From: Fidelibacterota bacterium
Lineage (GTDB): Bacteria; Fidelibacterota; Fidelibacteria; Fidelibacterales; Fidelibacteraceae
DNA: 64,000 nt
Direction: 5' to 3'
NCBI GenBank assembly: GCA_028699915.1
Contig: JAQVTR010000005.1
Span: 1 to 64,000 of the forward strand
Position 1 is the stretch's first letter. Every line of letters starts with the position of its first letter. Shown piece by piece: positions 28,912 through 49,047 of the stretch. The position numbers and the translations under genes are program-made. The notes beneath the pieces are model-generated. The model searched no databases and had not been told where the DNA came from. It was given only the letters and a program-made list of their open reading frames with translations.

Positions 28912-29378
28912 AAACGCTTGTAACAATTAACGGGAAAAGCATTGAGCTCCGTTTCGATCCCGATGAAACCCTGCTGCACACCCTGCGCAATCACGGCTAT
29001 ACCGAAGTGAAAAGCGGCTGTGAGGAAGGCGAGTGCGGCGCTTGTCTGATCTTGCTGAACGGCAAGGCCGTCAATTCCTGCCTGATATTCACGGCAACGT
29101 TAAAAAATGACAATATTCTGACAGCCGCCGGCATCGGAACATTGCATGAACCGCATATCATCCAGCAGGCATTCGTTGATTGCGGAGCCGTGCAGTGCGG
29201 TTTCTGCACGCCGGGCATGGTGATCGCCGGCTATGCGCTTCTGCAGGACAATCCCGATCCTTCCGAGACTGAGATTAGAAAAGCGCTCAGCGGCAACCTC
29301 TGCCGCTGCACGGGCTATGTGAAGATCGTAGAGGCCGTACAGGAGGCGTCTAAACGCCTGAGAGGTGAAGGATCATGA
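28908..29378 (+). CDS. Molybdenum hydroxylase I, [2Fe-2S] small subunit
   Basis: A 156-residue CoxS/XdhC-type subunit with two [2Fe-2S] clusters. The plant-type ferredoxin cysteines are in SGCEEGECGACLILLNG and the following NSC; the C-terminal helical domain has QCGFCTPGM and GNLCRCTGY. All eight expected cysteines are seen. It relays electrons from the molybdenum site to FAD. It overlaps both neighbours by 4 bases. Confidence 0.94.
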   Translation: MKTLVTINGKSIELRFDPDETLLHTLRNHGYTEVKSGCEEGECGACLILLNGKAVNSCLIFTATLKNDNILTAAGIGTLHEPHIIQQAFVDCGAVQCGFCTPGMVIAGYALLQDNPDPSETEIRKALSGNLCRCTGYVKIVEAVQEASKRLRGEGS

Positions 29379-33049: not shown

Positions 33050-34333
33050 ATGTCAGATCATTATATTCTCAGCAATGCCGTTCTCAGCGACGGCGTTTCC
33101 TTCGTTCTTCACGATGCCGCCATCGAGATCAAAAACGGCAGCATCCTGAAGATCGGAAAAAATGCGGATATGCAAAAAACGGGCATCAAAAGCATCGATC
33201 TCGGGGGCCGGCTTGTGCTGCCCGGTCTGCTGAACGCGCATCACCATCTGTATTCCGCCCTGGCAACGGGACTGGCGCCTGCGGGTCCGACCGACACCTT
33301 CGGGCGGATCCTGGAGAATCTCTGGTGGCGGCTGGACCGCAGTCTGGATGAAGAGAGCATTTATTATTCCGCCGTCAGCGGGCTGATGCAGTGCATCCGT
33401 TACGGCGTGACCACCGTAATCGATCATCACGCATCCATGCACAGCGTAAAGGGCAGTCTGGATATCATTGAAAGCGCATTCCGGGAGACGGGCCTGAAAG
33501 GTCTGCTGTGCTATGAGGTATCCGACCGCGAAGGCGAAAAGGCCCTGGACGCCCAGATCGATGAAAATGTAAACTTCTGGAACAAACACAGGGAAGACCC
33601 AAAGATCCGCGGACTTTTCGGACTGCACGCAAATTTTACGCTGAGCGAAAAAAGCATGCGGCGCATTGCGGAAGTCCGGCCCCGGGAAATGCCGGTGCAT
33701 ATCCACTGCGGGGAATCGGCGGGCGATCTTGCCTTCTGCCGCGGACAGGGCTATGCCGGACCCGTGGACCGTCTGCATGCTTTCGGCCTTCTGTCCCGCA
33801 GCAGTCTGCTCGCGCACTGCATTCATCTTTCGGACCGCGATTACGATATCCTTTATGAACTGCAGCCGGTGGTGGTCTCCAATCCGGAATCCAATGCCAA
33901 TAACAATGCCGGTATGATGGATCTGACGAAGATCCGCCGCTATGTGCTGGGTACGGACGGCATGACGGGCAATATGCTGGGCACTTTCCGCTCCCATTTC
34001 CTGCTGCGGAACGGAGACCTGCAAAACCCCTCCGGCATGCTTTTTGCCTATCCGGCGGAGATCATGGGCAGCTATTTTCCGGGCTGGGGAAAGCTCGAAG
34101 CCGGCGCTGCTGCGGATATCGCCGTTACCAATTACCGTCCCCTTACTCCGCTGAACATGGATAATCTGTTCTTCCACCTGATCTTCGGCGTGCAGGGCAA
34201 AGAAATGTTTATGACCATCGCGGACGGGAAAATCCTTTTCAGCAACAACAAGCTGCATTCGCCGGACGAAGAAGCAATGAATGCGGCCATCAAAGAAACG
34301 GTAATGAAACTTCATGAACGCTTTAAACAGTGA
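33050..34333 (+). CDS. ssnA: Putative aminohydrolase SsnA
   Basis: A 427-residue amidohydrolase of the SsnA type, named in E. coli for a stationary-phase gene of the selenium-linked hydroxylase region. Zinc ligands are LNAHHHLYSAL, MPVHIHCGES, LAHCIHLSDRD and VLGTDGMTGN. The start at 33050 is supported by GAAAGGAGC and follows the previous stop by one base; the frame is open further upstream. SsnA always travels with YgfK/XdhD-like genes and is required for anaerobic urate use in gut bacteria as I recall it. It is expected to open or deaminate a purine ring intermediate. Confidence 0.9.
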   Translation: MSDHYILSNAVLSDGVSFVLHDAAIEIKNGSILKIGKNADMQKTGIKSIDLGGRLVLPGLLNAHHHLYSALATGLAPAGPTDTFGRILENLWWRLDRSLDEESIYYSAVSGLMQCIRYGVTTVIDHHASMHSVKGSLDIIESAFRETGLKGLLCYEVSDREGEKALDAQIDENVNFWNKHREDPKIRGLFGLHANFTLSEKSMRRIAEVRPREMPVHIHCGESAGDLAFCRGQGYAGPVDRLHAFGLLSRSSLLAHCIHLSDRDYDILYELQPVVVSNPESNANNNAGMMDLTKIRRYVLGTDGMTGNMLGTFRSHFLLRNGDLQNPSGMLFAYPAEIMGSYFPGWGKLEAGAAADIAVTNYRPLTPLNMDNLFFHLIFGVQGKEMFMTIADGKILFSNNKLHSPDEEAMNAAIKETVMKLHERFKQ

Positions 34334-37300
34334 CATTATGTACCCTCTGCCCATCGGACGCCTGACGGCGACGCTGCTGCAGGGACTAAAAAACGGCAGC
34401 ATCTTCGGCATATACCGCAGCACCTTTGCGGATCCTGCGGATTATCCCGAACTGCAGTCCGCCCTGTTCGGCCGGACACTGGATACACCCCTGGGTCCCG
34501 CCGCGGGTCCGCATACGCAGATGGCACAGAACATCATATCTGCCTGGCTCTGCGGCGCACGCTATATCGAGCTGAAGACCGTGCAAACCCTTGATGAGAT
34601 CGAGGTGTCCAAACCCTGTATCGATATGCAGGACGAGGGCTATAACTGCGAGTGGTCACAGGAGCTGACCCTGCAGCAGTCTTACGAAGAATATCTCAAG
34701 GCCTGGATCCTGATCCGTATTCTGCAGAAAGAGCTGGGCTATGCGGATTTCGGCACGATCTTCAATATGAGTGTCGGTTATGATATGAAAGGTATCCTCA
34801 AGCCCAATGTTCAGAAATTCTTCAGCAAAATGGCCGATTGCTCAAAAGAAAAAGAGAACATGCTGGAAGCGGTCCGGCCGCTTTATCCCGGCATTGACGA
34901 TATCGATATTCCCTGCTGTATTTCCGATAATATCACGCTGTCCACCATGCACGGCTGTCCGGCGGACGAGATCGGTCAGATCGGCCGCTACCTTTTGGAA
35001 GAACGGGGACTCCATACTTTTATCAAGCTCAATCCCACGCTGCTGGGAGCGGATGCGATCCGTGAAATACTGCAGGGGCTCGCTTACGACACCGTTGTGC
35101 CGGACACGGCCTTTGAACATGACATCAGCTTTGATGCCGCCTGCGCGATCATTGAAGAACTGCAGGCAGTCGCAAAAAAAGAAGGACGTTTTTTCGGCAT
35201 CAAGCTGACGAACACACTGGAAGCGCGTAATCACAGGGACATTTTCAGTGAAGAAAACATGTACATGAGCGGCAAGGCCCTGCATCCCGTCAGCATCAAC
35301 GTGGCGGCAAAACTGCGCCGGCGCTTTCCGGAACTTCCGCTGTCCTTCTGCGGCGGCCTGCATGCTTACAACGCGGCCGATGCCGCCGCCTGCGGACTCT
35401 TTCCCCTGACCGTCAGTTCGGATCTGCTGCGTCCAGGCGGCTATACGCGCCTGCGCCAGTATCTGGAAAATCTCAAAAAACAGCAAAAAAACGTGGAACC
35501 GCTCAAATATCTGGCCGCGTATGCAGAGCAGGTTCGCCGTGATCCGCAGTACAGGCATAGTGAGCGCAGCATCAAAAGCAGGCGCAGGCTGGACTATTTT
35601 GACTGTATTGCGGCGCCCTGCGTTGAAGCATGTCCCGCACATCAGAATATTCCGGCATATCTTGCTTTTATTAACCGCGGCGACAATGCCAAAGCGCTTG
35701 AAACGATCCTGCAGACCAATCCTTTCCCCTTGTCGACGGGAATGATCTGCAATCACGCCTGCCAGACGGTCTGTACCCGGGTCCATTACGACAGCGCCAT
35801 TCGTATCAGGGATATCAAACGCTATATTGCCGAAAATACCGAACGTTTGCAGCAACATCTGTCCGGGGTCGGGAAAGAACTGCGCATTGCCGTGATCGGT
35901 GCCGGGCCTGCGGGCCTGAGCTGTGCCTGGTATCTGGCGCTTTCGGGCTGTACTGTGGACGTTTACGAAGCGTCCGATCGTCCGGGCGGCATGCTGGATG
36001 CCACGCTGCCCGCATTTCGCCTGCAGGAAGAAGCGCTGAACGGCGATATCGCCGCTATTCTGAAAACGGGTGTCCGTCTTCACAGCGCTTCGCCGGTAAA
36101 TAAAGAAATATTCCGGAATTTACAGAAAAACGCCGATTACATTTTTATTGCCGCCGGCGCACAAAGATCCCTTGAAGCCGGTATTCCCGGAGCGGGGGAT
36201 ATGCTGACGGATGCGCTGGCATTTTTAAAGGATGTGCGAAAAGGCGAAACGCCGGATTTAGGCAGTGATATCCTGGTGCTGGGCGGCGGCAATACCGCCG
36301 TAGACGCCGCAAGAGCCGCAAAATATCTTGCCGCGGCCGATGCGAAAGTCCGTATCGTTTACCGCCGCAGCCGCAGTGAAATGCCCGCTGACGAGAGTGA
36401 GATTGAAGCGGCACTGGAAGAGGGGATCGAGCTTATCGAGCTGGCAGCACCGGCCAGAGTGATCAGCAGCAGGGGAAAGATCAGCGCGCTGGAATGCCAC
36501 AAAATGAAACTCGTTCCCGGCAAAAAGGGCGAGCGTCCAAAACCGGTGGCCATACCCGGTAAAAATTTCAGTATACCGGCCTCCCTTATCATTTCCGCTT
36601 TCGGACAAAAGCCGGAGCTGGCGTTTATTGAGGATAAGGATCTGAAAGGAAAGAAAGAACTCGAGACTGCGATCCCCAATGTTTTTATCGGCGGGGATGC
36701 GCGTTTGGGAGCGTCTTTTCTGATCAATGCGATCGCGGACGGTAAAGACGCAGCGAAAAAGATCCTGGAAGCCGCCGGGGCAGATGCTCTTTTTGAGAAG
36801 GAGCTTCGCAGCGAAAAAAGCAGCCGCGAGGAACATCATCAGAAACTGTCACGTGTATTTCCGGGCGTTAAAACACGTTTTTTGCCGCTTGCAGATCGGG
36901 ATCTGCACAGCACGGTGGAATTGCCGATGCGCGAAGCGGAAGTCCGCGCCGAGTCCGGCCGCTGCCTGAACTGTGACGAGATCTGCGACCTCTGCGTAAG
37001 CGTCTGTCCCAACCGCGCCAATGCCGGCTATCACGTCCGCCCTTTTCGAATGCCGTTAAGCAGCATTACCCTGGAAAACGGTGAGTATTTTACAAGTCCG
37101 GATGATGAAATGGTCATTGAACAGCAATATCAGACCCTGAATATCGCCGATCTCTGCAATGAATGCGGCAACTGCACGACCTTTTGTCCCAGCGGCGGAC
37201 GGCCCTTTGCCGATAAGCCGCGCATCGCTCTTTGCAGGGACAGCTACCGTTCTCTGGAAAAAGGGTTTTATATCAGCGGCGAGCGCGTCTTCTATAAGGA

Positions 37301-37502
37301 AAAAGACAGTGAATATATTCTGGATATCCGGGATGAGGGTTACGGCCTGCAGACGGAACATGCCGACATTTTGCTGGATAAGAAATTCGGCATCAGGGAT
37401 GTGAAGGTGCTGGACAAGGCATCGGCGGAGATCTCCCTGCGTCCGGCCGTACAAATGCTTATAATAAAAAACGCAATGGATGAAATTTTTCCGGATGCCT
37501 AA
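34314..37502 (+). CDS. ygfK: YgfK: multidomain flavin/Fe-S oxidoreductase
   Basis: A 1062-residue protein matching E. coli YgfK (old name: putative selenate reductase). Domains: residues 1-400 a dihydroorotate-dehydrogenase-like barrel (PLGPAAGPHTQMAQN, IELKTVQTL); about 430-500 an Fe-S segment (PCVEACPAHQNIP); about 520-830 a glutamate-synthase-small-subunit-like FAD/NADPH domain (VIGAGPAGLSCAWYLALSG, VLGGGNTAVDAARAAK); C-terminal ferredoxin clusters at about 885 and 948 (CDLCVSVCP, CNECGNCTTFCP). It is believed to drive a reductive step in anaerobic purine breakdown. The start at 34314 keeps the NSDIMYPLP segment shared with E. coli; it overlaps ssnA by 20 bases without a clear ribosome-binding site. 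Confidence 0.92.
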   Translation: MNALNSDIMYPLPIGRLTATLLQGLKNGSIFGIYRSTFADPADYPELQSALFGRTLDTPLGPAAGPHTQMAQNIISAWLCGARYIELKTVQTLDEIEVSKPCIDMQDEGYNCEWSQELTLQQSYEEYLKAWILIRILQKELGYADFGTIFNMSVGYDMKGILKPNVQKFFSKMADCSKEKENMLEAVRPLYPGIDDIDIPCCISDNITLSTMHGCPADEIGQIGRYLLEERGLHTFIKLNPTLLGADAIREILQGLAYDTVVPDTAFEHDISFDAACAIIEELQAVAKKEGRFFGIKLTNTLEARNHRDIFSEENMYMSGKALHPVSINVAAKLRRRFPELPLSFCGGLHAYNAADAAACGLFPLTVSSDLLRPGGYTRLRQYLENLKKQQKNVEPLKYLAAYAEQVRRDPQYRHSERSIKSRRRLDYFDCIAAPCVEACPAHQNIPAYLAFINRGDNAKALETILQTNPFPLSTGMICNHACQTVCTRVHYDSAIRIRDIKRYIAENTERLQQHLSGVGKELRIAVIGAGPAGLSCAWYLALSGCTVDVYEASDRPGGMLDATLPAFRLQEEALNGDIAAILKTGVRLHSASPVNKEIFRNLQKNADYIFIAAGAQRSLEAGIPGAGDMLTDALAFLKDVRKGETPDLGSDILVLGGGNTAVDAARAAKYLAAADAKVRIVYRRSRSEMPADESEIEAALEEGIELIELAAPARVISSRGKISALECHKMKLVPGKKGERPKPVAIPGKNFSIPASLIISAFGQKPELAFIEDKDLKGKKELETAIPNVFIGGDARLGASFLINAIADGKDAAKKILEAAGADALFEKELRSEKSSREEHHQKLSRVFPGVKTRFLPLADRDLHSTVELPMREAEVRAESGRCLNCDEICDLCVSVCPNRANAGYHVRPFRMPLSSITLENGEYFTSPDDEMVIEQQYQTLNIADLCNECGNCTTFCPSGGRPFADKPRIALCRDSYRSLEKGFYISGERVFYKEKDSEYILDIRDEGYGLQTEHADILLDKKFGIRDVKVLDKASAEISLRPAVQMLIIKNAMDEIFPDA

Positions 37503-37529
37503 AACCGCAAAAATAAGGAATTGAAAAGT

Positions 37530-38747
37530 ATGAATACAGTGAAAGCCATTAAAGAAAAAAGCGCGGAATACCGCATAAAAACGGCGGAATATCTGTCGGA
37601 AATGGTGCAGATACCTTCCACCAGCGGAGAAGAAAGGGAAGTCATTTTAAAGATCAAATCCCAGCTGGAAAGCGCCGGCATCCGGGACCTGCGTATTGAC
37701 GGACTCGGCAATCTGATCGCGCGGGTCGGAAACGGACCGAAAATTCTGGCGATCGATGCGCATATCGACACCGTAGACACCGGCGATCCGGCACAGTGGG
37801 AATTTCCGCCCTTTTCGGGATTGATCCGGGACGGTTTCGTGCACGGGCGCGGCACGGTCGATCAGGAAGGCGGCGCAGCAGCCATGATCACCGCGGCCCG
37901 CATTTTGAACGAATTGCAGTACAACGGCGAATACAGCGTTTATTTTACGTTTACCGTTATGGAAGAAGACTGCGACGGGCTCTGCTGGCTGTACCTGATC
38001 GAAAAAGAGAAACTCATACCCGATGTGGCCGTGATCACGGAACCCACCAATCTGAACCTGTACCGCGGTCACCGCGGGCGCATGGAGATAGAGATCGATA
38101 TCAAAGGCTTGTCCGCCCACGGATCCGCACCCGAACGCGGAAGGAATGTCATCTATTCCGGTTCCCGCATCGCCCTGGAGATCGAGAAACTGCATTCACG
38201 GCTTCGTGCGGATGATTTTCTCGGAAAGGGCAGCATTGCCGCAACGCAGTTTACAACGGATTCCCCCTCGCTTTGTGCGATCCCGGACAAGGGTTTTATG
38301 CACATTGACCGCAGGCTGACCTGGGGCGAAACAAAGGAAAGCGCCGTCTCGGAGATTATAGCGGTCAGTGGCAAAGACTGTTCAGTTACCGTTCCGGAAT
38401 ACAGGCGTCCGTCCTATACCGGAATGCTCTTTGCCCAGGAAAAGTATTTTCCGACCTGGATGATCCCCGAAAAGCATCCGCTGATCCGGGCCGGCAGAAC
38501 ATGCTTCACATCGCTTTTTGAACAGGAGCCTTATATTGATAAATGGACTTTTTCCACGAACGGCGTTGCGATCTGCGGACGCTACGGCATTCCCTGCATC
38601 GGTTTCGGACCGGGCAACGAGATCTATGCACACGCTCCGAACGAAAAAGTGCCTGTCAGCGATCTTGAAAAGGCCGCGGCATTTTACGCCCTGCTGCCCT
38701 ATGTTCTGGAAAGCAACAACCCCGCAGATTTCAACGGAAAAGCATAA
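37530..38747 (+). CDS. ygeY: YgeY-type metallopeptidase (M20 family)
   Basis: A 405-residue M20/ArgE/DapE-family hydrolase of the YgeY selenium-linked type. Metal ligands: AIDAHIDTVD, GRGTVDQEGG, MEEDCDGLCW and VITEPTNLNLYRGHRG; a C-terminal His is in IYAHAPNEK. The start at 37530 has AAGGA about ten bases upstream; a TTG at 37521 is too close to it. Expected to remove a carbamoyl or acyl group from a purine-derived amino acid. Neighbours YgfK, YgeW and the PLP enzyme support this. Confidence 0.93.
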   Translation: MNTVKAIKEKSAEYRIKTAEYLSEMVQIPSTSGEEREVILKIKSQLESAGIRDLRIDGLGNLIARVGNGPKILAIDAHIDTVDTGDPAQWEFPPFSGLIRDGFVHGRGTVDQEGGAAAMITAARILNELQYNGEYSVYFTFTVMEEDCDGLCWLYLIEKEKLIPDVAVITEPTNLNLYRGHRGRMEIEIDIKGLSAHGSAPERGRNVIYSGSRIALEIEKLHSRLRADDFLGKGSIAATQFTTDSPSLCAIPDKGFMHIDRRLTWGETKESAVSEIIAVSGKDCSVTVPEYRRPSYTGMLFAQEKYFPTWMIPEKHPLIRAGRTCFTSLFEQEPYIDKWTFSTNGVAICGRYGIPCIGFGPGNEIYAHAPNEKVPVSDLEKAAAFYALLPYVLESNNPADFNGKA

Positions 38748-38758
38748 AGGAAAGAAAC

Positions 38759-39781
38759 ATGAGCGCTACACTACTTCGCGGAAAAGACCTGATCACTTTT
38801 CAGGAATGGAGCAAACAGGAAATCAATATGGTGCTGGAAAGCGCTGCGGACCTGAAACGCCGTTTTGCCATGAACGAGGCGCACAGGCTGCTGCAGGATA
38901 AGACCCTGTTCATGATGTTCTTTGAACAATCGACGCGTACCCGGAATTCCATGGAAGCGGGCATGACCCAGCTGGGCGGCCATGCACACGACCTGACGCC
39001 GGACAAGATGCAGCTTTCGCACGGCGAATCCGCCAGGGATACGGCTATGGTGTTGTCCAGGATGGGACACGCCATCGCCTGCCGCAATTGTTTTTACGGC
39101 ACCGGCAACGTCTATCTGCGCGAACTGGCCGAACATGCGGCCATTCCGGTGCTGTCCCTGCAGGACGATCTGTATCACCCCATGCAGGTGATCGCGGATC
39201 TGATGACTATCCGGGAGTATTTCGGCAGCGATCTGAAAGGCCTCAAAGTCACCATATCCTGGGCTTACGCTACCTCCCACGCAAAACCGCTGTCCGTACC
39301 GCTGTCCCAGCTGCTGCTCTTCCCGCGTTTCGGCATGGACGTCACCATCGCCGCGCCGAAAGAATTTCCCCTGTACAAAGACCTTGTTTCCGTTGCAGAG
39401 AAGAATGCTGCGGACAACGGCGGCAAGCTGCGCTTTACCGATGATATGGATGCCGCTTTCGAGGGCGCGCAGATCGTGATCCCCAAGAACTGGGGCGGCT
39501 TCGGCAATTACAGCTTTGAAGAATACAATGCCAATGAGGAAGAATGCCGGAAGGAAATGAAGACGAATCTGGAAAAACATAAGGACTGGATCTGTGACGA
39601 GCGGCGCATGAAACTGGCGCACAGGGATGTCAGATACATGCACGCCCTGCCGGCAGACCGCGGGAACGAGGTCACGCCCGGCGTCATCGACAGTCCGGCT
39701 TCCATAATTTACGACGAGGCCGAGAACCGTCTGCATACGGCAAAGGCCGTCATGGCGTTGACAATGGGAGGAAGGCCCTAG
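38759..39781 (+). CDS. ygeW: Knotted carbamoyltransferase YgeW
   Basis: A 340-residue aspartate/ornithine carbamoyltransferase-fold protein of the YgeW type. Carbamoyl-phosphate motif: FFEQSTRTRNSMEAG; HPxQ motif: YHPMQVIADLMTIRE; late motif: HALPADRGNEV. It is shorter than E. coli YgeW (about 396 residues), mainly at the N-terminus. Expected to phosphorolyse a ureido amino acid to carbamoyl phosphate, which would yield ATP by carbamate kinase; no carbamate kinase gene is in the window. GGAAAGAAAC precedes the ATG. Confidence 0.92.
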   Translation: MSATLLRGKDLITFQEWSKQEINMVLESAADLKRRFAMNEAHRLLQDKTLFMMFFEQSTRTRNSMEAGMTQLGGHAHDLTPDKMQLSHGESARDTAMVLSRMGHAIACRNCFYGTGNVYLRELAEHAAIPVLSLQDDLYHPMQVIADLMTIREYFGSDLKGLKVTISWAYATSHAKPLSVPLSQLLLFPRFGMDVTIAAPKEFPLYKDLVSVAEKNAADNGGKLRFTDDMDAAFEGAQIVIPKNWGGFGNYSFEEYNANEEECRKEMKTNLEKHKDWICDERRMKLAHRDVRYMHALPADRGNEVTPGVIDSPASIIYDEAENRLHTAKAVMALTMGGRP

Positions 39782-39784
39782 ATC

Positions 39785-40957
39785 ATGAAAGCGGAATTCA
39801 GCTGCAAATGTTCGGAATGCGGAAAGATCCTTGATATCGGTCCCGGTATCATGCTTTGTCCCGTATGTGCGAAAAAACAACGCAGCGACGAACCCTTGCG
39901 CGGTATTCCGGAATTTGAATACACGCCGCGGCCGGGTCTGAAGGCGGAGGACTATTATCCGGTGGAAAAAGTATTTTTTCCGGAGCTTCCCGTCGGCAAT
40001 ACGCCGCTGTGGAAGGCCTCCCTGCCGGATGCGCACCGGGAGCTGTATCTGAAAGACGATACCGGGAATCTCAGTGCATCCTTTAAGGACCGCGCCTCAT
40101 TGCTGGTGGCGGCATTTGCGCTGAAATACGGCTATGAGGAGATCGCCGTCGCTTCGACCGGGAATGCGGGATCTTCCATGGCGGCGATCGCGGCTGCGGC
40201 CGGTTTAAAGAGCACCATATTCCTGCCGGAAAAGGCACCGCGTGCCAAAATGATACAGGCCCTGCAGTACGGCGCAAGGCTAATAAGCGTAGACGGCAAT
40301 TACGACAAGGCCTTTGATCTTTCTCTGCAGTATTCAGAAAAATATGCCGTTCTTAATCGCAACACCGCTTATAATCCGCTGACCATCGAAGGCAAGAAAA
40401 GCGCAGCCATTGAAATATTCCGCCAGATGAGAACAGTGCCCGATTACGTCTTTGTCCCCTGCGGAGACGGCGTGATCCTCGGCGGCATGTACAAGGGCTT
40501 CCGTGACCTGCTGCACTGCGGCTTTACGGACAGCATCCCCGTTCTGATCGCCGTTCAGGCTGAAGGCAGTCCGGCCATCCACCATGCGCTGCAAAGCGGA
40601 AAGTTCCGTCCATGTAAAAGCCGCACCATCGCGGATTCCATTGCCGTGGATATTCCGCGCGGCGGCTATTATGCTCTGCGGCAACTGCAGGCTTACGGCG
40701 GGAAATCCATACTGGTCAGCGATAAGGAGATCCTGGAGGCACAGCTGCGGCTTTCGCGGAAAGCGGGACTGTTTGCCGAACCGGCCGCTGCGGCTTCCTA
40801 TGCGGGATATGAAAAAATGAAAGGTAAGTTGCCGGAAAATGCACGTGTTGTTCTCATGATTACCGGCAGCGGACTTAAGGATGTCGATGCCGCCGTGAAA
40901 AAACTGTCTTTCCCGGAAAAAAGCATTTCCCGAATTGAGGATCTGTATGAAGATTGA
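39785..40957 (+). CDS. Fold-type-II PLP enzyme, threonine-synthase-like, with zinc-ribbon N-terminus
   Basis: A 390-residue PLP-dependent lyase. Residues 1-35 hold two CxxC pairs (CKCSECGK, LCPVCAKK), a zinc ribbon common in ThrC-type proteins. The PLP Lys is in SASFKDRAS, the phosphate loop is STGNAGSS, and SAAIEIFRQM plus LMITGSGLKD follow, all ThrC-like. In E. coli the gene at this spot is ygeX (diaminopropionate ammonia-lyase), whose LNAFKMLGG motif is absent here. It may be a ThrC-like replacement acting on 2,3-diaminopropionate or a related amino acid; simple threonine synthase is the other option. The mocA start lies inside its 3' end. Confidence 0.8.
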   Translation: MKAEFSCKCSECGKILDIGPGIMLCPVCAKKQRSDEPLRGIPEFEYTPRPGLKAEDYYPVEKVFFPELPVGNTPLWKASLPDAHRELYLKDDTGNLSASFKDRASLLVAAFALKYGYEEIAVASTGNAGSSMAAIAAAAGLKSTIFLPEKAPRAKMIQALQYGARLISVDGNYDKAFDLSLQYSEKYAVLNRNTAYNPLTIEGKKSAAIEIFRQMRTVPDYVFVPCGDGVILGGMYKGFRDLLHCGFTDSIPVLIAVQAEGSPAIHHALQSGKFRPCKSRTIADSIAVDIPRGGYYALRQLQAYGGKSILVSDKEILEAQLRLSRKAGLFAEPAAAASYAGYEKMKGKLPENARVVLMITGSGLKDVDAAVKKLSFPEKSISRIEDLYED

Positions 40958-41534
40958 CGCTATCGTTCTGGCAGCGGGCCGCTCGGAAAGGGCCGGACTC
41001 TTTAAGGCGGCCGCCGATCTTGGCGGCAAGCCGCTGCTTTGGCGGAGTATCGAAAGTTTTGCCGGTATCTGCGAACGCATCATCGTTGTCGGCGGATACC
41101 GCTTCGGCGACATTCAGGAGCTTCTTGAAAATATGCCCGGACTTGTGATCCGGGAAAATAAAAATTATGAAAAGGGCATGTTCTCTTCTGTGCAAACCGG
41201 ACTGCATGCACTGCAATCCGATGCGTTTTTTCTGCTTCCCGGCGATCAGCCGCTGATCGCAGCCCGCACTTACCGGCGCATGGCACAGCAGGACGCCGAC
41301 ATTGTTGTTCCACGCTATCAGGGGAAAAAAGGACATCCGGTATTTTTCCGGGCATCCTGCATTCCGGAGATCCTGGCCATGCCGGAGACCGCTGTTCTGC
41401 GCGACTATATTCATGCCCACGGCAAAGTCTGCATTCTGGATGTCGATGACCCCGCCATTCTGATGGATGCGGATACGCCCGGGGATCTGGAGCGGATCAG
41501 AGATTATTATTTCAAACAAAGGAAGGGGCAGTGA
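40947..41534 (+). CDS. mocA: Molybdenum cofactor nucleotidyltransferase MocA-like
   Basis: A 195-residue nucleotidyltransferase of the MocA (YgfJ) family, which adds CMP to molybdopterin for xanthine-dehydrogenase-type enzymes. The signature LAAGRSERAG is followed by LPGDQPLIAA and GHPVFFR and DVDDPAILMDADTPGDL. The start at 40947 is preceded by TTGAGG and overlaps the PLP gene by 11 bases. Its stop overlaps the next gene (GTGA). Located between the hydroxylase sets it is expected to serve. Confidence 0.92.
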   Translation: MKIDAIVLAAGRSERAGLFKAAADLGGKPLLWRSIESFAGICERIIVVGGYRFGDIQELLENMPGLVIRENKNYEKGMFSSVQTGLHALQSDAFFLLPGDQPLIAARTYRRMAQQDADIVVPRYQGKKGHPVFFRASCIPEILAMPETAVLRDYIHAHGKVCILDVDDPAILMDADTPGDLERIRDYYFKQRKGQ

Positions 41535-43627
41535 AGACCGGGATCAGTAAAGCTGTGGAGAGAACGGACGCACGGAAAAAGATCCGCGGCGAAGCCGAAT
41601 ATATTGCCGACCGGCATTTCGAGGAACAGCTGTATGCAAAGACCATCCGCAGCAGCAAGGCCAAAGCGCGAATTCTGGAAATTCGCCTGCCGGAAATGCC
41701 GGCGGATTATTTTGCGGTAGGCCGCAATGACGTTCCGGGACTCAACCGCATGCGAACCGTGGTTTCCGATCACCCCATTTTTGCCGAAGAGCAGGTGGAG
41801 TACATCGGCCAGCCGCTTTTTCTTCTGGTAGGTCCCGACCGTGAAAAACTCTGCGATTTGGCGGACATGGTCAATATTCGCTATGAAGAAGAAGCGGGGG
41901 TCTTTACACTGGAAGAGGCAGAAAAGCAGGACACGGTCTTTACGGATTATCAGTACCGGAAAGGAGACCCCGCAGCGGCCTTCCGGGATGCGGCGCAGAT
42001 CATTGAGGAGGAATTCCGGACGGGCTATCAGGAACACGCGTATCTGGAACCGCAGGGTATTGCCGCGGAATACCGTAACGGCATTTTGTACGTTTACGGT
42101 TCCATGCAGTGTCCCTACTACGTGCGAAACGCCTTGCTGGAAACCATGGCAATACCGGATAAACAAATACGCATTATTCAAACCGTGACCGGCGGTGCTT
42201 TTGGCGGCAAAGAGGAATTCCCTTCGCTAACGGCCTGCCAGGTAGCGGTTGCGGCTAAAAAGACCGAAAAACCCGTAATGATGATCTATGACCGTGACGA
42301 GGACATCCGCTGCTCGACCAAGCGGCATCCCTCGCTGATACGTTGCCGGGCGGCGTTGGATAAGAATAATGCCGTGACGGGACTGGAAATGGACGTACTG
42401 CTGAATGCCGGCGCCTATAACGGCCTGTCACCCGTAGTGCTGCAACGCGCGCTGTTTTCGGCCACGGGCGTCTATGACATTCCGCACCTTCGGGTCCGCG
42501 GCCGGAATTACCGGACCAATATGACGCCTTCCGGCGCATTTCGGGGTTTTGGCGCCCCGCAGAGTATTTTTGCCATCGAAATGCTAATGCTGCAAATTGC
42601 GGTCCGGCTGGGGGAAGATCCGCTGGAATACAAAATGCGGCATGCTCTCAAGCAGGGAAGTCAAACCTGCACGGGGGGCAAGGTGCGCGAAGAGGTCAAG
42701 CTACCGGAGATTGTTGGAAAAATCAGAAAAATGAGCGCCTACGTTAAAAAACAAAAAAATAAAAAACCGTTCAGCGGCATTGGAGCGTCGCTCTTTCTGC
42801 ACGGCTGCGGCTTTACCGGTCGCGGGGAATCGGATATTCGCGGAAAGGTGATTTTGTCGAAGGATAAAGATAGCGTAACCCTGCGCGTCTCCAGCGTTGA
42901 AATGGGACAGGGAGCCGAAACGGTGCTGCGCAAGATCGTTGCACAGAGTCTGGACATTCCCATAGAAAAAGTAAACTATGCGCAGGTTGATACGGGAGCT
43001 GTGCCGGATTCCGGCCCCACGGTGGCATCGCGCACGACCATGATCGTCGGCGGACTGCTGCAGGAATGCGCCAAGGAAATGAAGGCGCGCTGGCGGGAGT
43101 GTGATCGGCTGGAAATTGAAAAGGTTTATCAGCATCCTTCCTGGTTGCACTGGGACGACAGCACTTTTCAGGGGGATGCCTACCCGGTTTATTCCTGGGG
43201 CGCAAATATCGCGGAAGTGGAAGTCGATCCTATCAGTTACGAGATCTCCGTAAAAAAAATATACGCCGTCTATGACGTGGGTGTGCCGGTAGACCTTCGC
43301 ACCCTGGACGGCCAGATGCAGGGCGGTATTGCCCAGGGCATCGGATGGGCGACCATCGAGCTTATGGAAGGCGAGGCCGGACGCCTGAAACAGTCGAACC
43401 TGACCGACTATAAGGTGCCGACCAGCATGGATACTCCCGAAATGGAGATCGCCTATGTGAACAATCCCTACCCGTACGGCCCTTTCGGCGCCAAATGCGC
43501 CGGGGAACTGCCTTTTGTAGGATCACCGCCGGCAGTGGCCGCTGCCGTTTCCGATGCACTGGGGCGGAAGATCAATTATATTCCGCTGACACCCGAAAGT
43601 CTGATGGAGTCCGATAATGAAGATTGA
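41531..43627 (+). CDS. Molybdenum hydroxylase II, molybdopterin-binding large subunit
   Basis: A 698-residue large subunit of a second xanthine-dehydrogenase-family enzyme. The MoCo loop is GGAFGGKEEFP near residue 223, RGFGAPQSIF near 338, the QG motif in VEMGQGAETVLRK near 460, and catalytic Glu in GAKCAGELP near 660. It starts with GTG at 41531, sharing GTGA with mocA, with GGAAGGGG upstream. It differs clearly from large subunit I in length and loop sequences, so a different substrate is likely. Purine hydroxylation is inferred from context. Confidence 0.9.
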   Translation: MKTGISKAVERTDARKKIRGEAEYIADRHFEEQLYAKTIRSSKAKARILEIRLPEMPADYFAVGRNDVPGLNRMRTVVSDHPIFAEEQVEYIGQPLFLLVGPDREKLCDLADMVNIRYEEEAGVFTLEEAEKQDTVFTDYQYRKGDPAAAFRDAAQIIEEEFRTGYQEHAYLEPQGIAAEYRNGILYVYGSMQCPYYVRNALLETMAIPDKQIRIIQTVTGGAFGGKEEFPSLTACQVAVAAKKTEKPVMMIYDRDEDIRCSTKRHPSLIRCRAALDKNNAVTGLEMDVLLNAGAYNGLSPVVLQRALFSATGVYDIPHLRVRGRNYRTNMTPSGAFRGFGAPQSIFAIEMLMLQIAVRLGEDPLEYKMRHALKQGSQTCTGGKVREEVKLPEIVGKIRKMSAYVKKQKNKKPFSGIGASLFLHGCGFTGRGESDIRGKVILSKDKDSVTLRVSSVEMGQGAETVLRKIVAQSLDIPIEKVNYAQVDTGAVPDSGPTVASRTTMIVGGLLQECAKEMKARWRECDRLEIEKVYQHPSWLHWDDSTFQGDAYPVYSWGANIAEVEVDPISYEISVKKIYAVYDVGVPVDLRTLDGQMQGGIAQGIGWATIELMEGEAGRLKQSNLTDYKVPTSMDTPEMEIAYVNNPYPYGPFGAKCAGELPFVGSPPAVAAAVSDALGRKINYIPLTPESLMESDNED

Positions 43628-44087
43628 ATTTACACTCAACGGCGAAAAAAAACATCTTGATGTGCATGCCGCAACACGGCTGCTGGATGTGTTGCGGGGA
43701 CATTTTGGGCTCATTGGAGTCAAGGAGGGCTGTGGTGAGGGCGAATGCGGCGCTTGCATGGTGCTGATCAATGGCCGGGCCATGAACAGCTGTATGATAC
43801 CGATGGGAAATTTGGAAGGGAAAAACGTCATAACGCCCGAAGCCTTCTGCCAAAGCGAACGCGGGAGGATCATTGAGGATGCTTTTATGGAAGCGGGCGC
43901 CGTACAGTGCGGATTTTGCACGCCGGGTTTTATTATGGCAACGGCTTCCCTGCTGAACGCCAATCCGGATCCGGACGAGGCGCAAATCCGGGAAGCGCTT
44001 TCGGGGAATCTCTGCCGCTGCACGGGCTATACCGCCATTGTGCGGGCGGTACGGATCGCCGCGGGAAAAGGAGCGGGAGCATGCTAG
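43617..44087 (+). CDS. Molybdenum hydroxylase II, [2Fe-2S] small subunit
   Basis: A 156-residue small subunit with KEGCGEGECGACMVLINGRAMNSC and QCGFCTPGF plus GNLCRCTGY, giving all eight cluster cysteines. It overlaps the large subunit gene by 11 bases and the FAD subunit gene by 7. The order Mo, Fe-S, FAD is the reverse of set I. It is similar in length to small subunit I but has different linker sequence. Confidence 0.94.
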   Translation: MKIEFTLNGEKKHLDVHAATRLLDVLRGHFGLIGVKEGCGEGECGACMVLINGRAMNSCMIPMGNLEGKNVITPEAFCQSERGRIIEDAFMEAGAVQCGFCTPGFIMATASLLNANPDPDEAQIREALSGNLCRCTGYTAIVRAVRIAAGKGAGAC

Positions 44088-44938
44088 ACGGATACCTGCC
44101 GGCAAAACTGTCCGAAGCGCTGGATATGATGGCGGAATGTGACTGCATTCCCTTCGCGGGCGGCACCGACCTGATGGTGCAACACGCGCGGGGCAGCGGT
44201 GTGCGTCCGTGTTTTGATAAAACTTTGCTGTTCGTTTCTGCGCTGAAAGAACTGAAGACCTTTGATCTGATGGGAAAAACCCTGCGGATCGGAGCGGCGG
44301 TAACGCTCAGCGAACTTTTGGAAAATGCTGCAACACCACAGATATTTAAAGAGATACTGCGGCAGATGGCCGCTGCACCCACACGCCACATGGCTACACT
44401 GGCGGGGAATATTTGTAACGCCTCCCCTGCAGGGGATACTCTGCCCTATCTTTATGCTATGGATGCGGAAGTCATCCTGCAGTCCCGAAACGAAACACGC
44501 GTTTTGCCCGTTGCGGATTTTATCACCGCACCGAAACGGACACAGCGCAAGAACGATGAACTGTTAACGGGAATTCGTATTCCCGCAGCCGAATTCAATG
44601 TGGAAAGTTACCGCAAACTGGGTCAGCGAAAAGGAATGAGCCTGACGAAAGCCTCTTTTCTGGGACTGGCCTCGACGGCAAACGGCAGGATCGAGGACAT
44701 TCGTATCGCATTGGGTTCCGTAGCGCCGCACATAGTGCGATCGCGAAAAATCGAGAGCAAATTAACGGGGAAAAATATCAAGGATATTCCCGGAATACTG
44801 CAGGAATTACAAAAGGATTACAGCGCGCTGATAAGGCCTATCGATGATGCGCGTTCAACCGCTGCCTACCGGAAACAGGTAAGCCTGCGCCTGATCCGTG
44901 ATTTCCTGATTAATTGCATGCTCAAAAAAATACCGTAA
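44081..44938 (+). CDS. Molybdenum hydroxylase II, FAD-binding medium subunit
   Basis: A 285-residue FAD subunit. FAD motif FAGGTDLMVQ near residue 25, and the second motif ATLAGNICNASPAGDTLPYL near 106, both canonical. C-terminal flavoprotein domain follows (YRKLGQRKGMSLTKAS). The start at 44081 is preceded by AAAAGGAGCGGGAGC; the frame is open further upstream inside the Fe-S gene but without such support. Completes the second hydroxylase. Confidence 0.92.
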   Translation: MLDGYLPAKLSEALDMMAECDCIPFAGGTDLMVQHARGSGVRPCFDKTLLFVSALKELKTFDLMGKTLRIGAAVTLSELLENAATPQIFKEILRQMAAAPTRHMATLAGNICNASPAGDTLPYLYAMDAEVILQSRNETRVLPVADFITAPKRTQRKNDELLTGIRIPAAEFNVESYRKLGQRKGMSLTKASFLGLASTANGRIEDIRIALGSVAPHIVRSRKIESKLTGKNIKDIPGILQELQKDYSALIRPIDDARSTAAYRKQVSLRLIRDFLINCMLKKIP

Positions 44939-44953
44939 TAAGGAGAGATACGT

Positions 44954-45574
44954 ATGAATGAAAACAAAAGATTCTTGTCAAGCGTTTTGCTCTTTGGAGC
45001 GCTATGGGGTTTAGCGGAAGCCACACTGGGCTATCTGCTTCATTTTTTACCCTGCGGTTTTGCAGGACTGGTTATGTTCCCCATCGGATTTTATATGATG
45101 TACAACGCTTACCGCCTTAGCGGCAGACACAGTGCAATGCTGGCGGTTGCGCTGATTGCGGCTCTGATCAAGACCATTGATCTTGCCCTACCTTTAACGA
45201 ATATCATGAGCGTGCTGAATCCCGCGAGTTCTATCCTCATAGAGGGGCTGGTTGTCTTTGGGGCGGCAAGGTTCTTTGAAGGAAGGCGTGCGCTGCCGGC
45301 CGTGTTGCTGGTAAGCGCAGGCTGGATCCTGCTTTTTGTGCTGACGCAAAGCCTTCTGCTTCGTCCTGCAAGCGGCCTGTATCTTTACCCCTTGAAAACG
45401 ATGCTGTTCTACATTCTGCTTAACGTTATTGTCAATAGCGCGGCGATTCTGCTTTATCTGAAAAATAAAACCCGCCTGTCCCTGCGACTGCAGCAGGAAG
45501 CGACCGCTTTGGTGGCACCGTTGATGTTGTTGTTTGCAATCGCAATGGAGATCGGCAATAATCTGCTGTCCTGA
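44954..45574 (+). CDS. Small six-helix membrane protein of unknown function
   Basis: A 206-residue, very hydrophobic protein with about six predicted membrane segments. The first helix (SSVLLFGALWGLAEATLGYLLHF) carries a conserved-looking Glu. Size and helix number are like the substrate-binding S-components of ECF transporters, but no known S-component signature is seen. GGAGAG precedes the ATG. It sits between the second hydroxylase and the DUF364-type gene, so a link to purine, molybdate or selenium handling is possible. No other transporter is found in the cluster. Confidence 0.55.
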   Translation: MNENKRFLSSVLLFGALWGLAEATLGYLLHFLPCGFAGLVMFPIGFYMMYNAYRLSGRHSAMLAVALIAALIKTIDLALPLTNIMSVLNPASSILIEGLVVFGAARFFEGRRALPAVLLVSAGWILLFVLTQSLLLRPASGLYLYPLKTMLFYILLNVIVNSAAILLYLKNKTRLSLRLQQEATALVAPLMLLFAIAMEIGNNLLS

Positions 45575-45575
45575 C

Positions 45576-46301
45576 ATGCAAATACTGGTGCAGCTGATCT
45601 CAGACATTCCGGAACTGGCTGTCGATGAAGTGATCATCGGTGTGCATTCTGTTCTGGTAAAAAGCGGAGCGCTCGCGGGTATTGCCAGTACCATCAAATA
45701 CTGCGGTCCCCATACGCAGCTCCGCAATGCGGGCGAACTGGAAAAACACACGCTCCGGAAACTGGCGAGCTATGCCCTTTCGGATAATTTGCTGGAGGCT
45801 TCTGTAGGCATGGCTGCGATCAACTGTGCCCTTTCCGCAAATGCGGAAAAATATCGCGAGATTAATGCAAAAGAGGTGCTTCTTGAAAAAGGTCGCGCCA
45901 AAACGGTCGGTATCATCGGACATTTCCCCTTTTTGGAGTCGCAGCGCATGGAATATGAACATTGTTTTATTTTTGAAAAACAACCGCAGAAAGGGGATCT
46001 GAAGGAAAGCGATATTCCCGCTTACCTGCCCCGGGTGGATGTGGTTGCTATCAGCGGGACAACCCTGACCAATCACAGCTTTTACGATGTGATGCATAAT
46101 GTATCCCCGTCTGCTTTTTGCCTCTTATTGGGACCTTCCACACCGCTGAGCCCAAAGCTTTTCGATGTGGGGATCGATGTGCTTTCCGGCACGGGAATAA
46201 GGGACTATGATCGTGCTAAAAGTTGTGTATTGCAGGCCGTGCCGACCCGTTATCTGAAAGGCGTGGCGATGCTGAGCATGTTTAAAGAGGATTATCAATG
46301 A
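45576..46301 (+). CDS. DUF364/DUF4213-type putative metal-chelation protein
   Basis: A 241-residue protein whose layout fits the DUF4213 (N-terminal) plus DUF364 (C-terminal, putative heavy-metal chelation) pair. Typical segments are AVDEVIIGVHSVLVKS, GHFPFL, and VVAISGTTLTNHSFYDVM and LLGPSTPLSP. Family members often sit next to metal-cofactor genes; biochemical function is unproven. The start at 45576 follows the previous stop by one base, and the end overlaps xdhC (ATGA). A role in delivering molybdenum or another metal to the hydroxylases is inferred from position only. Confidence 0.7.
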   Translation: MQILVQLISDIPELAVDEVIIGVHSVLVKSGALAGIASTIKYCGPHTQLRNAGELEKHTLRKLASYALSDNLLEASVGMAAINCALSANAEKYREINAKEVLLEKGRAKTVGIIGHFPFLESQRMEYEHCFIFEKQPQKGDLKESDIPAYLPRVDVVAISGTTLTNHSFYDVMHNVSPSAFCLLLGPSTPLSPKLFDVGIDVLSGTGIRDYDRAKSCVLQAVPTRYLKGVAMLSMFKEDYQ

Positions 46302-47101
46302 AAAGTATCTACAGCGAATTGCTGGAACTGGCCGAAGGTTCCGCTGCCGGTGTGCTTGTTACGGTTGTCGATAAACAGGGATCGGGACCTGCAGCCGCCG
46401 GCGCGAAAATGATCGTCTATCCGGACGGCCGCAGTTCCGGAACGGTCGGCGGAGGAAATCTTGAATCGCTTGCCATCCGCAAAGCCCTGACGCTGATCGA
46501 AACAAAAGAAAATGCGCTGGAAACCTTTTCGATGGACGAAGAAAAAAGGGGAACTCAAACCGGCATGATCTGCGGTGGAACAGCAACACTGTTCTTTGAA
46601 TATTTCGCCCCGCAAAAACAAGTCTTTATTTTCGGAGCGGGACATATCGGCCGCGCACTGGCTTACCATTTAAAGCCCCTGCCCTGGCGTGTTACGATCA
46701 TCGACGATCGCCCCGAAGCATTGTCGCAGATCGCCGATGCCGACGAAAAGATCCTGACGCATTTTGACGATGCGCTGAAGGGTCGCATTTTCCCGAAAGG
46801 CGCTTTTTATGTTATTGCCACCTACGGACACCGGCACGACGGAACCGTTCTGAATGCTATCTACAAAGCGAATATCAAACCGGCCTACGTGGGTATGGTG
46901 GCTTCCGCAAAAAAGAAAGCTCTTCTGACGGAAGATCTGAAAAAAGCGGAACCGAAGGCAGATCTGTCGGTCTTTTATATACCGGTCGGTCTGAATATCG
47001 GAGGAACCCTGCCGCAGGAGATCGCCATTTCCATTATCGCAGAAATGCAAGCGGTTTCCAACGGAAAAACCAGCGCACACTTACGGCAGCTTCATGATTA
47101 A
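46298..47101 (+). CDS. xdhC: XdhC/CoxI-family molybdenum hydroxylase maturation factor
   Basis: A 267-residue XdhC-type chaperone that inserts the sulfurated molybdenum cofactor into xanthine-dehydrogenase-like enzymes. The N-terminal XdhC_CoxI motif is DKQGSGPAAAGAKM and SSGTVGGGNLE; MICGGTATLFFE follows; the C-terminal Rossmann domain has VFIFGAGHIGRALA and TYGHRHDGTVL. The YqeB family of selenium-dependent systems has a different N-terminus, so XdhC is the better name. It overlaps both neighbours by a few bases. Confidence 0.9.
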   Translation: MKSIYSELLELAEGSAAGVLVTVVDKQGSGPAAAGAKMIVYPDGRSSGTVGGGNLESLAIRKALTLIETKENALETFSMDEEKRGTQTGMICGGTATLFFEYFAPQKQVFIFGAGHIGRALAYHLKPLPWRVTIIDDRPEALSQIADADEKILTHFDDALKGRIFPKGAFYVIATYGHRHDGTVLNAIYKANIKPAYVGMVASAKKKALLTEDLKKAEPKADLSVFYIPVGLNIGGTLPQEIAISIIAEMQAVSNGKTSAHLRQLHD

Positions 47102-47591
47102 TATTGTCAGCGGAATTCAGAATGCAGGAAAGACACGCTTTATGCGGGATCACGCCAAGGGCAGCGGCGGGGACGGGATCTTAAGTGTAAAATATTTCGA
47201 GGATGGACGGCATGCGGGCTACGATCTTCTGCATTTGCGCAGAGGACGCAGCCTGCCCTTTATTCGCCGCCGGGATAACTTGCCCCCCGACTGGGACGGC
47301 GTGGCCGAAACCGGACCCTGGGTCTTTTCAGCGGCCGCTTTCCGCTTTGCAGAAAAAATATTTAAAAACAATCGTTCAGAACCCCTTTATCTCGATGAGA
47401 TCGGTCCGCTGGAGATCCGTGAAAAATCAGGGTTCTATCGGCTTGCAGCGGGACTTATCTCCGGCGGCGACAGGGAATTGTTCCTGAGCGTGCGCGAAAG
47501 CCTTCTAGGATCCTTTATACAAACGTTTTCACTGACACGGAGTCAGTTGGTCATTATTCGCTTAACACCAAAACGAGGCAGTTATGATTGA
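47094..47591 (+). CDS. THEP1-like P-loop NTPase
   Basis: A 165-residue P-loop protein. Walker A is GIQNAGKTRF near residue 7 and the Walker B region is LYLDEIGPLEIREKSGF, very like the NTPase_1/THEP1 nucleoside-triphosphatase family (DEIGxxE). An alternative is a MobB- or YqeC-like accessory protein for molybdenum or selenium cofactors. It overlaps xdhC by 8 bases and the next PLP gene by 8 bases, so it is part of the operon. Function in the pathway is unknown. Confidence 0.65.
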   Translation: MINIVSGIQNAGKTRFMRDHAKGSGGDGILSVKYFEDGRHAGYDLLHLRRGRSLPFIRRRDNLPPDWDGVAETGPWVFSAAAFRFAEKIFKNNRSEPLYLDEIGPLEIREKSGFYRLAAGLISGGDRELFLSVRESLLGSFIQTFSLTRSQLVIIRLTPKRGSYD

Positions 47592-49047
47592 TCTGAGCAT
47601 TCACAAAGAACAATTGAAGAAAACCGTTCAGCGCTGTAAGGAACGCAATATTATATTACCGACCTTTGAACAGATGAAGCATCCCGAAGGTATTCCCGAA
47701 AACATCAAAAAGGAACTGAGCGGCATCGGGCTCTGGGACATCCACCCGCGGAATCTGTTCCGTATTACCTGGAAAAATGAGCCCGTGCAGGAAGGCGGAA
47801 AATTCAGCGGCGTGAACCTTATGGAAATTCCTCCCGAAATCAGCGGAGTGAAAGCCCGGATTTTTGCACTGGTGGGCAAATGGTTCCCCACGGGCGCACA
47901 CAAGGTCGGAGCCACTTACGGCTGTATTGTACCGCGGCTGATCACGGGACAGTTTGATCCCACAAAGCAAAAAGCCGTATGGCCGTCAACCGGTAACTAC
48001 TGCCGGGGCGGGGCCTATAACGCCGCCCTGCTGGCCTGCGAATCCATTGCCATTCTGCCCGAAGAAATGTCGCAGGAACGCTTTGAATGGCTGTCAAGAA
48101 TTGCCGGCGAAGTAATCCCAACGCCAGGCTGCGAAAGCAATGTTAAAGAGATCTTTGACAAGTGCCGGGAATTGCGCAATACCCGCGGCGATGATATCAT
48201 GATCTTTAATCAGTTTGATGAGTTCGGCAATCATCTCTGGCATTATGATGTCACCGGAAACGCCATATTGGAGGTCATGCGGAAAAAAATGCAGAAAAAA
48301 GATCATTTTGCCGGTGTTGTACTGAGTTCCGGATCGGCCGGAACCCTGGGCTGCGGAGATTTTCTGAAAGAACATTTCCCGCAGCTGAAAGTAACCGCGG
48401 CCGAAGCACTGCAGTGCCCCACCCTGCTGGAAAATGGTTTTGGCGGTCACCGTATTGAGGGCATCGGCGACAAGCATGTGCCCTGGATCCACAACCTGCG
48501 CAACACGGATATGGTTGTTGCCGTAGACGATGAAGTGACAATCCGTGTAATGCGTTTGTTCAATGAACCGGAGGGGCGTGAATATCTCAACGAACAGGGT
48601 GCTGATGCGGACCGGGTAAACGATCTTGATCTGCTCGGTATTTCCTCGATCGGCAATCTGATCGGTGCAATCAAATTTGCAAAATATTATGAGTTGACGG
48701 AAGATGATATTGTCATGACCATCTTTACGGATTCCATGGAGCTTTACGATTCCCGAATCCGCCAACAGCGTAAAATACACGGCGAATATACGCGTGAACA
48801 GGCCATTCGCGATTATGAGATGCTGCTGAATGTAAATACCGACAATATGCAGGAGCTTGGTTACCGCGACAGAAAACGCATTCATAACCTGAAATATTAT
48901 ACCTGGATCGAACAGCAGGCAAAAGACCTGGATGAGCTGAACGCGCAATGGTATGATCATGAAAATTACTGGGGAAATATCCATGCCATGGTGCCGAAGA
49001 TCGATGCATTGATCCGAGAATTCAATGAGCGGGTAAAAAACTTATAA
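47584..49047 (+). CDS. Fold-type-II PLP enzyme, TrpB/cysteine-synthase-like
   Basis: A 487-residue PLP-dependent enzyme. The PLP Lys is in FPTGAHKVGATYG, the same motif as TrpB (TGAHK), with the phosphate loop in SSGSAGTLGCG. It is longer than TrpB and has no TrpA neighbour. Similar proteins are annotated only as pyridoxal-phosphate-dependent beta-subunit-like in clostridial genomes. Being in this operon it may act on a diamino acid from purine breakdown (elimination of ammonia). GAGGCAGTT precedes the ATG. Function inferred. Confidence 0.75.
   Translation: MIDLSIHKEQLKKTVQRCKERNIILPTFEQMKHPEGIPENIKKELSGIGLWDIHPRNLFRITWKNEPVQEGGKFSGVNLMEIPPEISGVKARIFALVGKWFPTGAHKVGATYGCIVPRLITGQFDPTKQKAVWPSTGNYCRGGAYNAALLACESIAILPEEMSQERFEWLSRIAGEVIPTPGCESNVKEIFDKCRELRNTRGDDIMIFNQFDEFGNHLWHYDVTGNAILEVMRKKMQKKDHFAGVVLSSGSAGTLGCGDFLKEHFPQLKVTAAEALQCPTLLENGFGGHRIEGIGDKHVPWIHNLRNTDMVVAVDDEVTIRVMRLFNEPEGREYLNEQGADADRVNDLDLLGISSIGNLIGAIKFAKYYELTEDDIVMTIFTDSMELYDSRIRQQRKIHGEYTREQAIRDYEMLLNVNTDNMQELGYRDRKRIHNLKYYTWIEQQAKDLDELNAQWYDHENYWGNIHAMVPKIDALIREFNERVKNL

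Follow-up and report, generated by a model that had tools for sequence, protein, structure and literature searches.

A threonine-synthase-like PLP enzyme as putative replacement of YgeX in a reductive uric-acid-type operon of Candidatus Neomarinimicrobiota

Results

The operon and its genes

The window, i.e. the whole 64,000-nucleotide stretch of DNA that was analysed, comes from a Candidatus Neomarinimicrobiota MAG and contains a run of co-directional genes from 28096 to 50479 whose internal gaps are at most 18 nt and which is followed by a gap of 141 nt. The run includes a threonine-synthase-like PLP enzyme, called ThrCl here, and is made up as follows:

28096-31705, + strand: first XDH-type molybdenum hydroxylase, start of the operon (FAD subunit 28096-28911, Fe-S subunit 28908-29378, Mo subunit 29375-31705)
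31702-33048, + strand: HyuA/allantoinase-type cyclic amidohydrolase (TIGR03178 355.8 bits, just below the cut-off of 357.85)
33050-34333, + strand: SsnA-like aminohydrolase (PRK07203 SsnA 396.7 bits, below the cut-off of 444)
34314-37502, + strand: YgfK (TIGR03315 854.8 bits, above the cut-off of 835.3)
37521-38747, + strand: YgeY M20 hydrolase (TIGR03526 488.5 bits, above the cut-off of 321.5)
38759-39781, + strand: YgeW-like carbamoyltransferase, 340 aa (OTCace_N/OTCace; YgeW model 213 bits, below the cut-off of 453)
39785-40957, + strand: ThrCl, 390 aa (Cys4 ribbon in the region 39809-39868; PLP lysine Lys101)
40947-41534, + strand: MocA-like nucleotidyltransferase (TIGR03310 134 bits, below the cut-off of 186; 11-nt overlap with the end of ThrCl)
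41531-44938, + strand: second XDH-type molybdenum hydroxylase (Mo subunit 41531-43627, Fe-S subunit 43617-44087, FAD subunit 44084-44938)
44954-47591, + strand: membrane protein, DUF364 protein, XdhC-like maturation factor and 165-aa protein, kept in synteny
47584-49047, + strand: PALP2, a CysK/CBS-like PLP enzyme, 487 aa (PF00291 55 bits; cysK 104 bits, below the cut-off of 351)
49061-50479, + strand: 8-oxoguanine deaminase, final gene of the run (PRK08203 571 bits, above the cut-off of 532)

The XDH, YgfK, SsnA, HyuA, carbamoyltransferase and YgeY types stand together in this one operon, which is the composition of a reductive uric-acid cluster; YgfK and YgeY score above the cut-offs of their models, and the SsnA, HyuA and YgeW types are homologues that fall below equivalog cut-offs. 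On sequence grounds the operon matches the reductive uric-acid pathway, with uric acid degradation as its putative function. The product of 8-oxoguanine deaminase, encoded by the final gene, is urate.

It was not until 2025 that the reductive pathway, by which bacteria degrade uric acid anaerobically, was solved. Urate is converted to yanthine by XdhD, followed by YgfK, SsnA and HyuA. YgeW and YgeY then strip off the ureido groups, and the 2,3-diaminopropionate (DAP) that is left is cleaved by YgeX (PMC12507026, PMC12990295); albizziin is a proposed intermediate (PMC12507026). The clusters of E. coli and C. difficile (PMC12507026) have all six of the above enzyme types in common with the window operon, but the latter has ThrCl and PALP2 in place of YgeX, two XDH sets and an 8-oxoguanine deaminase, and a carbamate kinase was not found in the whole genome of the ThrCl host.

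ThrCl starts 3 nt past the stop of the carbamoyltransferase gene. The preliminary description had placed it right after ygeW, and this adjacency holds, although we call the upstream gene only YgeW-like because its matches to the two YgeW-type models are weak (213 and 198 bits against cut-offs of 453 and 500); it is also short, at 340 aa, and closer to ornithine carbamoyltransferase models (247 bits against a cut-off of 281). The same description had likened the position to the E. coli slot between ygeW and ygeY. The E. coli order ygeW-ygeX-ygeY was confirmed in NC_000913, but the order in the window is YgeY, YgeW-like, ThrCl, so that ThrCl does not lie between YgeW and YgeY.

ThrCl is distinct from threonine synthases

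The open reading frame is real, and the protein is, as had been described from the sequence, a threonine-synthase-like PLP enzyme with a Cys4 ribbon and its PLP lysine in SASFKDRAS. It is a fold-type-II PLP enzyme (PF00291, 240 bits) in which C9, C12, C25 and C28 form an N-terminal zinc-ribbon pattern. These four cysteines and Lys101 are invariant in an alignment of 30 ThrCl orthologues, as is T125-G126-N127 of the STGN loop, which together with K101 is a feature of threonine synthase (ThrC). The AlphaFold2 model of ThrCl is confident (pLDDT 91.7, pTM 0.91), and its top PDB fold matches are threonine synthases.

Short ThrC proteins (PDB 1uim/1v7c, 2zsj, 6cgq, 2d1f) are the closest solved sequences and the best fold matches, and have the SFKDR and STGN motifs in common with ThrCl. 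However, ThrCl falls below every NCBIfam threonine-synthase cut-off (TIGR00260, 155.7 bits against 167.1), and differs from short ThrC in its N-terminal Cys4 ribbon, its catabolic operon and the presence of a separate ThrC in the genome. It also differs at residues which, counted from an alignment with T. thermophilus ThrC, correspond to R160 (T or L in ThrCl), Q164 (K), N188 (D) and T239 (D); these replacements are present in 30/30 aligned orthologues, and Thr at the Arg160 position with Lys at the Gln164 position was found in 75/75 of the named loci whose motif could be read. Asn-Ser...Arg and Gly-Asn are retained in bona fide ThrC proteins of both the short and the long type. We take Asn154, Ser155, Arg160 and Asn188 of the T. 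thermophilus enzyme to be the residues that hold the phosphate of O-phosphohomoserine.

A maximum-likelihood tree of 60 proteins resolved separate clades for the 31 ThrCl sequences (96/93; bootstrap 96), for YgeX (100/100) and for long ThrC, with the short ThrC-like proteins scattered. The separate ThrC is encoded on contig C113 (TIGR00260, 264 bits against 167), and another ThrC-like protein on contig C96. The preliminary description had proposed this tree and a search for a second thrC, and held that its view would fall if there were no other thrC and ThrCl clustered inside the threonine synthases; the second gene exists, and ThrCl has a clade of its own, apart from both ThrC and YgeX.

ThrCl and YgeX

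YgeX (TIGR03528/TIGR01747) resembles ThrCl in being a fold-type-II PLP enzyme (PF00291) with a slot beside YgeY or YgeW, and the substrate that we infer for ThrCl is the same. ThrCl differs from it in having the Cys4 ribbon, other residues around the PLP and usually PALP2 alongside; it scores only 26 bits with the YgeX model TIGR03528 (cut-off 532) and does not group with characterised YgeX in the tree. YgeX was not found within the window, and in this respect the earlier statement that it is missing stands. For the genome the statement is wrong, as a diaminopropionate ammonia-lyase is encoded on contig C68 (L034:5875-7137), away from the operon, and scores 532.8 bits with TIGR03528 (cut-off 532.25) and 536 bits with PRK08206 (cut-off 276). 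Among 61 Neomarinimicrobiota genomes this YgeX is common to the host (G000) and its nearest relative (G001) only. The DNA match between the two barely exceeds the gene and the flanks differ, and the gene therefore looks like a separate acquisition.

ThrCl is widespread and rarely occurs with YgeX

With a threshold of at least 250 bits, a ThrCl orthologue was found in 34/61 Neomarinimicrobiota genomes, only two of which (2/34) have YgeX. It lies in uric-acid-type clusters, with synteny kept in 16 close relatives, and also in more distant ones; in some relatives an AAA_14/DUF4143 ATPase gene stands between the carbamoyltransferase and ThrCl (L043:4098-5453, L046:10370-11725). A scan of named genomes gave 80 ThrCl loci, from Neomarinimicrobiota, WOR-3, SAR324, Spirochaetota, Bacteroidota, Cloacimonadota, Thermodesulfobacteriota, Acidobacteriota and others. 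Many of the contigs are short, and with this limit at least one of YgeY, YgeW, YgfK, SsnA and HyuA was nearby in 59/80 loci and PALP2 in 57/80; ThrCl-PALP2 pairs without uric-acid genes were seen at L097, L098, L132 and L148. YgeX was absent from 46 of the 50 named ThrCl genomes tested and present in four. ThrCl thus occupies a YgeX-like slot and is nearly exclusive with YgeX, the exceptions being G000, G001, G073 and three others.

We also counted both enzymes in genomes that have YgeY, bearing in mind that the MAGs included are incomplete. YgeY was found in 27/149 Spirochaetota (ThrCl only in 6, YgeX only in 19, both in 1, neither in 1; in one of the 27, G122, YgeY is weak and its context unrelated) and in 10/247 Thermodesulfobacteriota (ThrCl only in 4, YgeX only in 5, both in 0, neither in 1), i.e. 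the combined counts are 10, 24, 1 and 2. Fisher tests, which ignore shared ancestry, gave p values of 1.6e-4 for Spirochaetota, 0.048 for Thermodesulfobacteriota and 1.9e-6 combined, and these values overstate independence because 16 of the Spirochaetota genomes counted are close relatives of one another. The gene immediately beside YgeY in Spirochaetota is YgeX in 16 genomes and ThrCl in 4 others.

PALP2 and the genes of the late steps

The best sequence and fold matches of PALP2 are CysK and cystathionine beta-synthase, from which it differs in its score (104 bits against the cysK cut-off of 351), its length of 487 aa, a TrpB-like GAHK motif and its catabolic operon. We considered OrtB of the ornithine pathway and rejected it, as the NCBIfam matches include no OrtB model and PALP2 is not flanked by ornithine genes. 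Of the two proteins, PALP2 shows the higher conservation (mean column identity 70%, against 53% for ThrCl). Two Spirochaetota (G118, G130) have PALP2 together with YgeX but lack ThrCl, so that PALP2 and YgeX exclude each other less strictly than ThrCl and YgeX do; G108 has ThrCl but lacks PALP2. The clusters of a single Neomarinimicrobiota family (L061-L063) contain, in place of PALP2, a CysK that scores at the cut-off of its model.

Late-step-only operons of Thermodesulfobacteriota consist of a TRAP transporter, YgeY, YgeW, ThrCl and PALP2 (L193, L194; similar at L096, L107 and L113, with the transporter seen in four of the five), and the YgeW of operons of the L193 and L194 type is closer to that of E. 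coli. The TRAP-linked arrangement suggests import of a ureido intermediate released by other microbes. Uric-acid-type clusters in which YgeY was not detected have two different carbamoyltransferases (L046, L049, L058, L191), an arrangement that would fit removal of both ureido groups by phosphorolysis; a carbamate kinase, scored where readable, accompanies the two carbamoyltransferases and ThrCl at L046, L058 and L191. The late-step operons and the two-carbamoyltransferase loci together place ThrCl after ureido-group removal, i.e. at DAP.

Discussion

We propose, with a probability of about 0.62, that ThrCl is a PLP enzyme dedicated to catabolism which replaces YgeX at the DAP step, the last of the reductive uric-acid pathway. 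The observations in support are its position, the synteny, the near-exclusion with YgeX, the altered active site and the separate clade; the central argument is that ThrCl occupies the YgeX slot and that genomes across several phyla carry one enzyme or the other, rarely both. The preliminary description had suggested either a non-homologous replacement or a new elimination reaction. Replacement as such is supported by the synteny and by near-exclusion in three phyla, although this genome keeps a YgeX elsewhere. It would not be non-homologous, as both proteins are fold-type-II PLP enzymes of PF00291, and displacement by a paralogous family describes it better; a new elimination reaction by ThrCl is possible.

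For the substrate and product of ThrCl and the role of PALP2 we infer the following scheme. Both ureido groups would be removed, by the YgeW-like enzyme and YgeY or by two carbamoyltransferases, to give DAP, which would bind the PLP at Lys101 of ThrCl. Abstraction of the alpha-proton and elimination of the beta-amino group would give a PLP-aminoacrylate, to be released as pyruvate and ammonia as in YgeX, and PALP2, the usual CysK/CBS-like partner, may act in the same segment. The change of the Arg/Asn phosphate pocket of ThrC to Thr and Asp, i.e. to neutral and acidic residues, fits a cationic beta-ammonium leaving group better than a phosphate. Against replacement, G000, G001 and a few other genomes carry both ThrCl and YgeX, some ThrCl-PALP2 loci are without uric-acid genes, and the lyase could be PALP2 instead of ThrCl.

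The presence of two PLP enzymes where the YgeX route needs one, together with the ThrC-like fold of ThrCl, leaves some room for a beta-replacement, in which ThrCl alone or with PALP2 would add water onto the aminoacrylate, as in threonine synthase, and convert DAP to serine for serine ammonia-lyase or serine hydroxymethyltransferase. Two betaproteobacterial loci have an N-carbamoyl-amino-acid-type amidohydrolase before and an L-serine ammonia-lyase after the ThrCl-PALP2 pair, and in Desulforhopalus GlyA lies between PALP2 and ThrCl; these neighbours hint at serine as the product in some lineages. Most loci, however, lack serine genes, the independent cases are few and a lyase reaction needs one enzyme only, and we regard the beta-replacement as unlikely though plausible. 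Its wider form is equally tentative: ThrCl and PALP2 would be a two-enzyme module across many phyla, and would turn DAP derived from purines, or from ureido amino acids that are imported, into serine along a new PLP beta-replacement route in place of the YgeX lyase. It is also rather doubtful that PALP2 is the enzyme that really replaces YgeX, with ThrCl serving another purpose in the operon: the greater conservation of PALP2, its usual place adjoining ThrCl and its own replacement by CysK in one family would suit this, but PALP2 co-occurs with YgeX in G118 and G130, which lack ThrCl, G108 has ThrCl without PALP2, and the gene beside YgeY/YgeW in the window and close relatives is ThrCl.

A role one step earlier, in which ThrCl would eliminate urea from a mono-ureido intermediate, is in keeping with the proposal of albizziin as such an intermediate and with an active site unlike that of YgeX. 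We consider it improbable, as many loci retain YgeY adjacent to ThrCl and those that lack YgeY have a second carbamoyltransferase, which suggests that ThrCl acts only once both ureido groups are gone. That ThrCl is an ordinary threonine synthase sitting in the operon by chance is highly improbable. Threonine synthases are its nearest relatives of known structure and its best fold matches, and its TIGR00260 score is near the cut-off, but we rejected this reading on the missed cut-offs, the replaced R160, Q164 and N188 equivalents, the tree, the separate ThrC and the conserved operon position.

ThrCl in the YgeX slot is probably a new variant of the reductive uric-acid pathway and a replacement that has so far gone unrecognised. 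A 2025 survey of the clusters noted substitutes for YgfK (UacX, a putative F420 enzyme) and for YgeW (UacY) and documented none for YgeX, which it scored by PF00291, a model that also matches ThrCl and PALP2; the literature that we searched yielded no description of a ThrC-like enzyme in uric-acid clusters or in the YgeX slot. If the replacement is real, it fills in a variant of the last step that had been missing for many environmental anaerobes (Neomarinimicrobiota, Cloacimonadota, Bacteroidota, Spirochaetota and Thermodesulfobacteriota), counting PF00291 as YgeX hides this variant, and a likely misannotation of ThrCl as threonine synthase is corrected.

The slot can also hold a third kind of PALP. 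In G361, which has neither ThrCl nor YgeX by score, it is occupied by a 525-aa protein that has a CxxC motif close to the N-terminus, and at L196:4698-6272 (- strand) a 525-aa PALP unlike ThrCl or YgeX adjoins a divergent PALP2, YgeY and YgeW; the 525-aa CxxC protein may represent a third way of carrying out this step.
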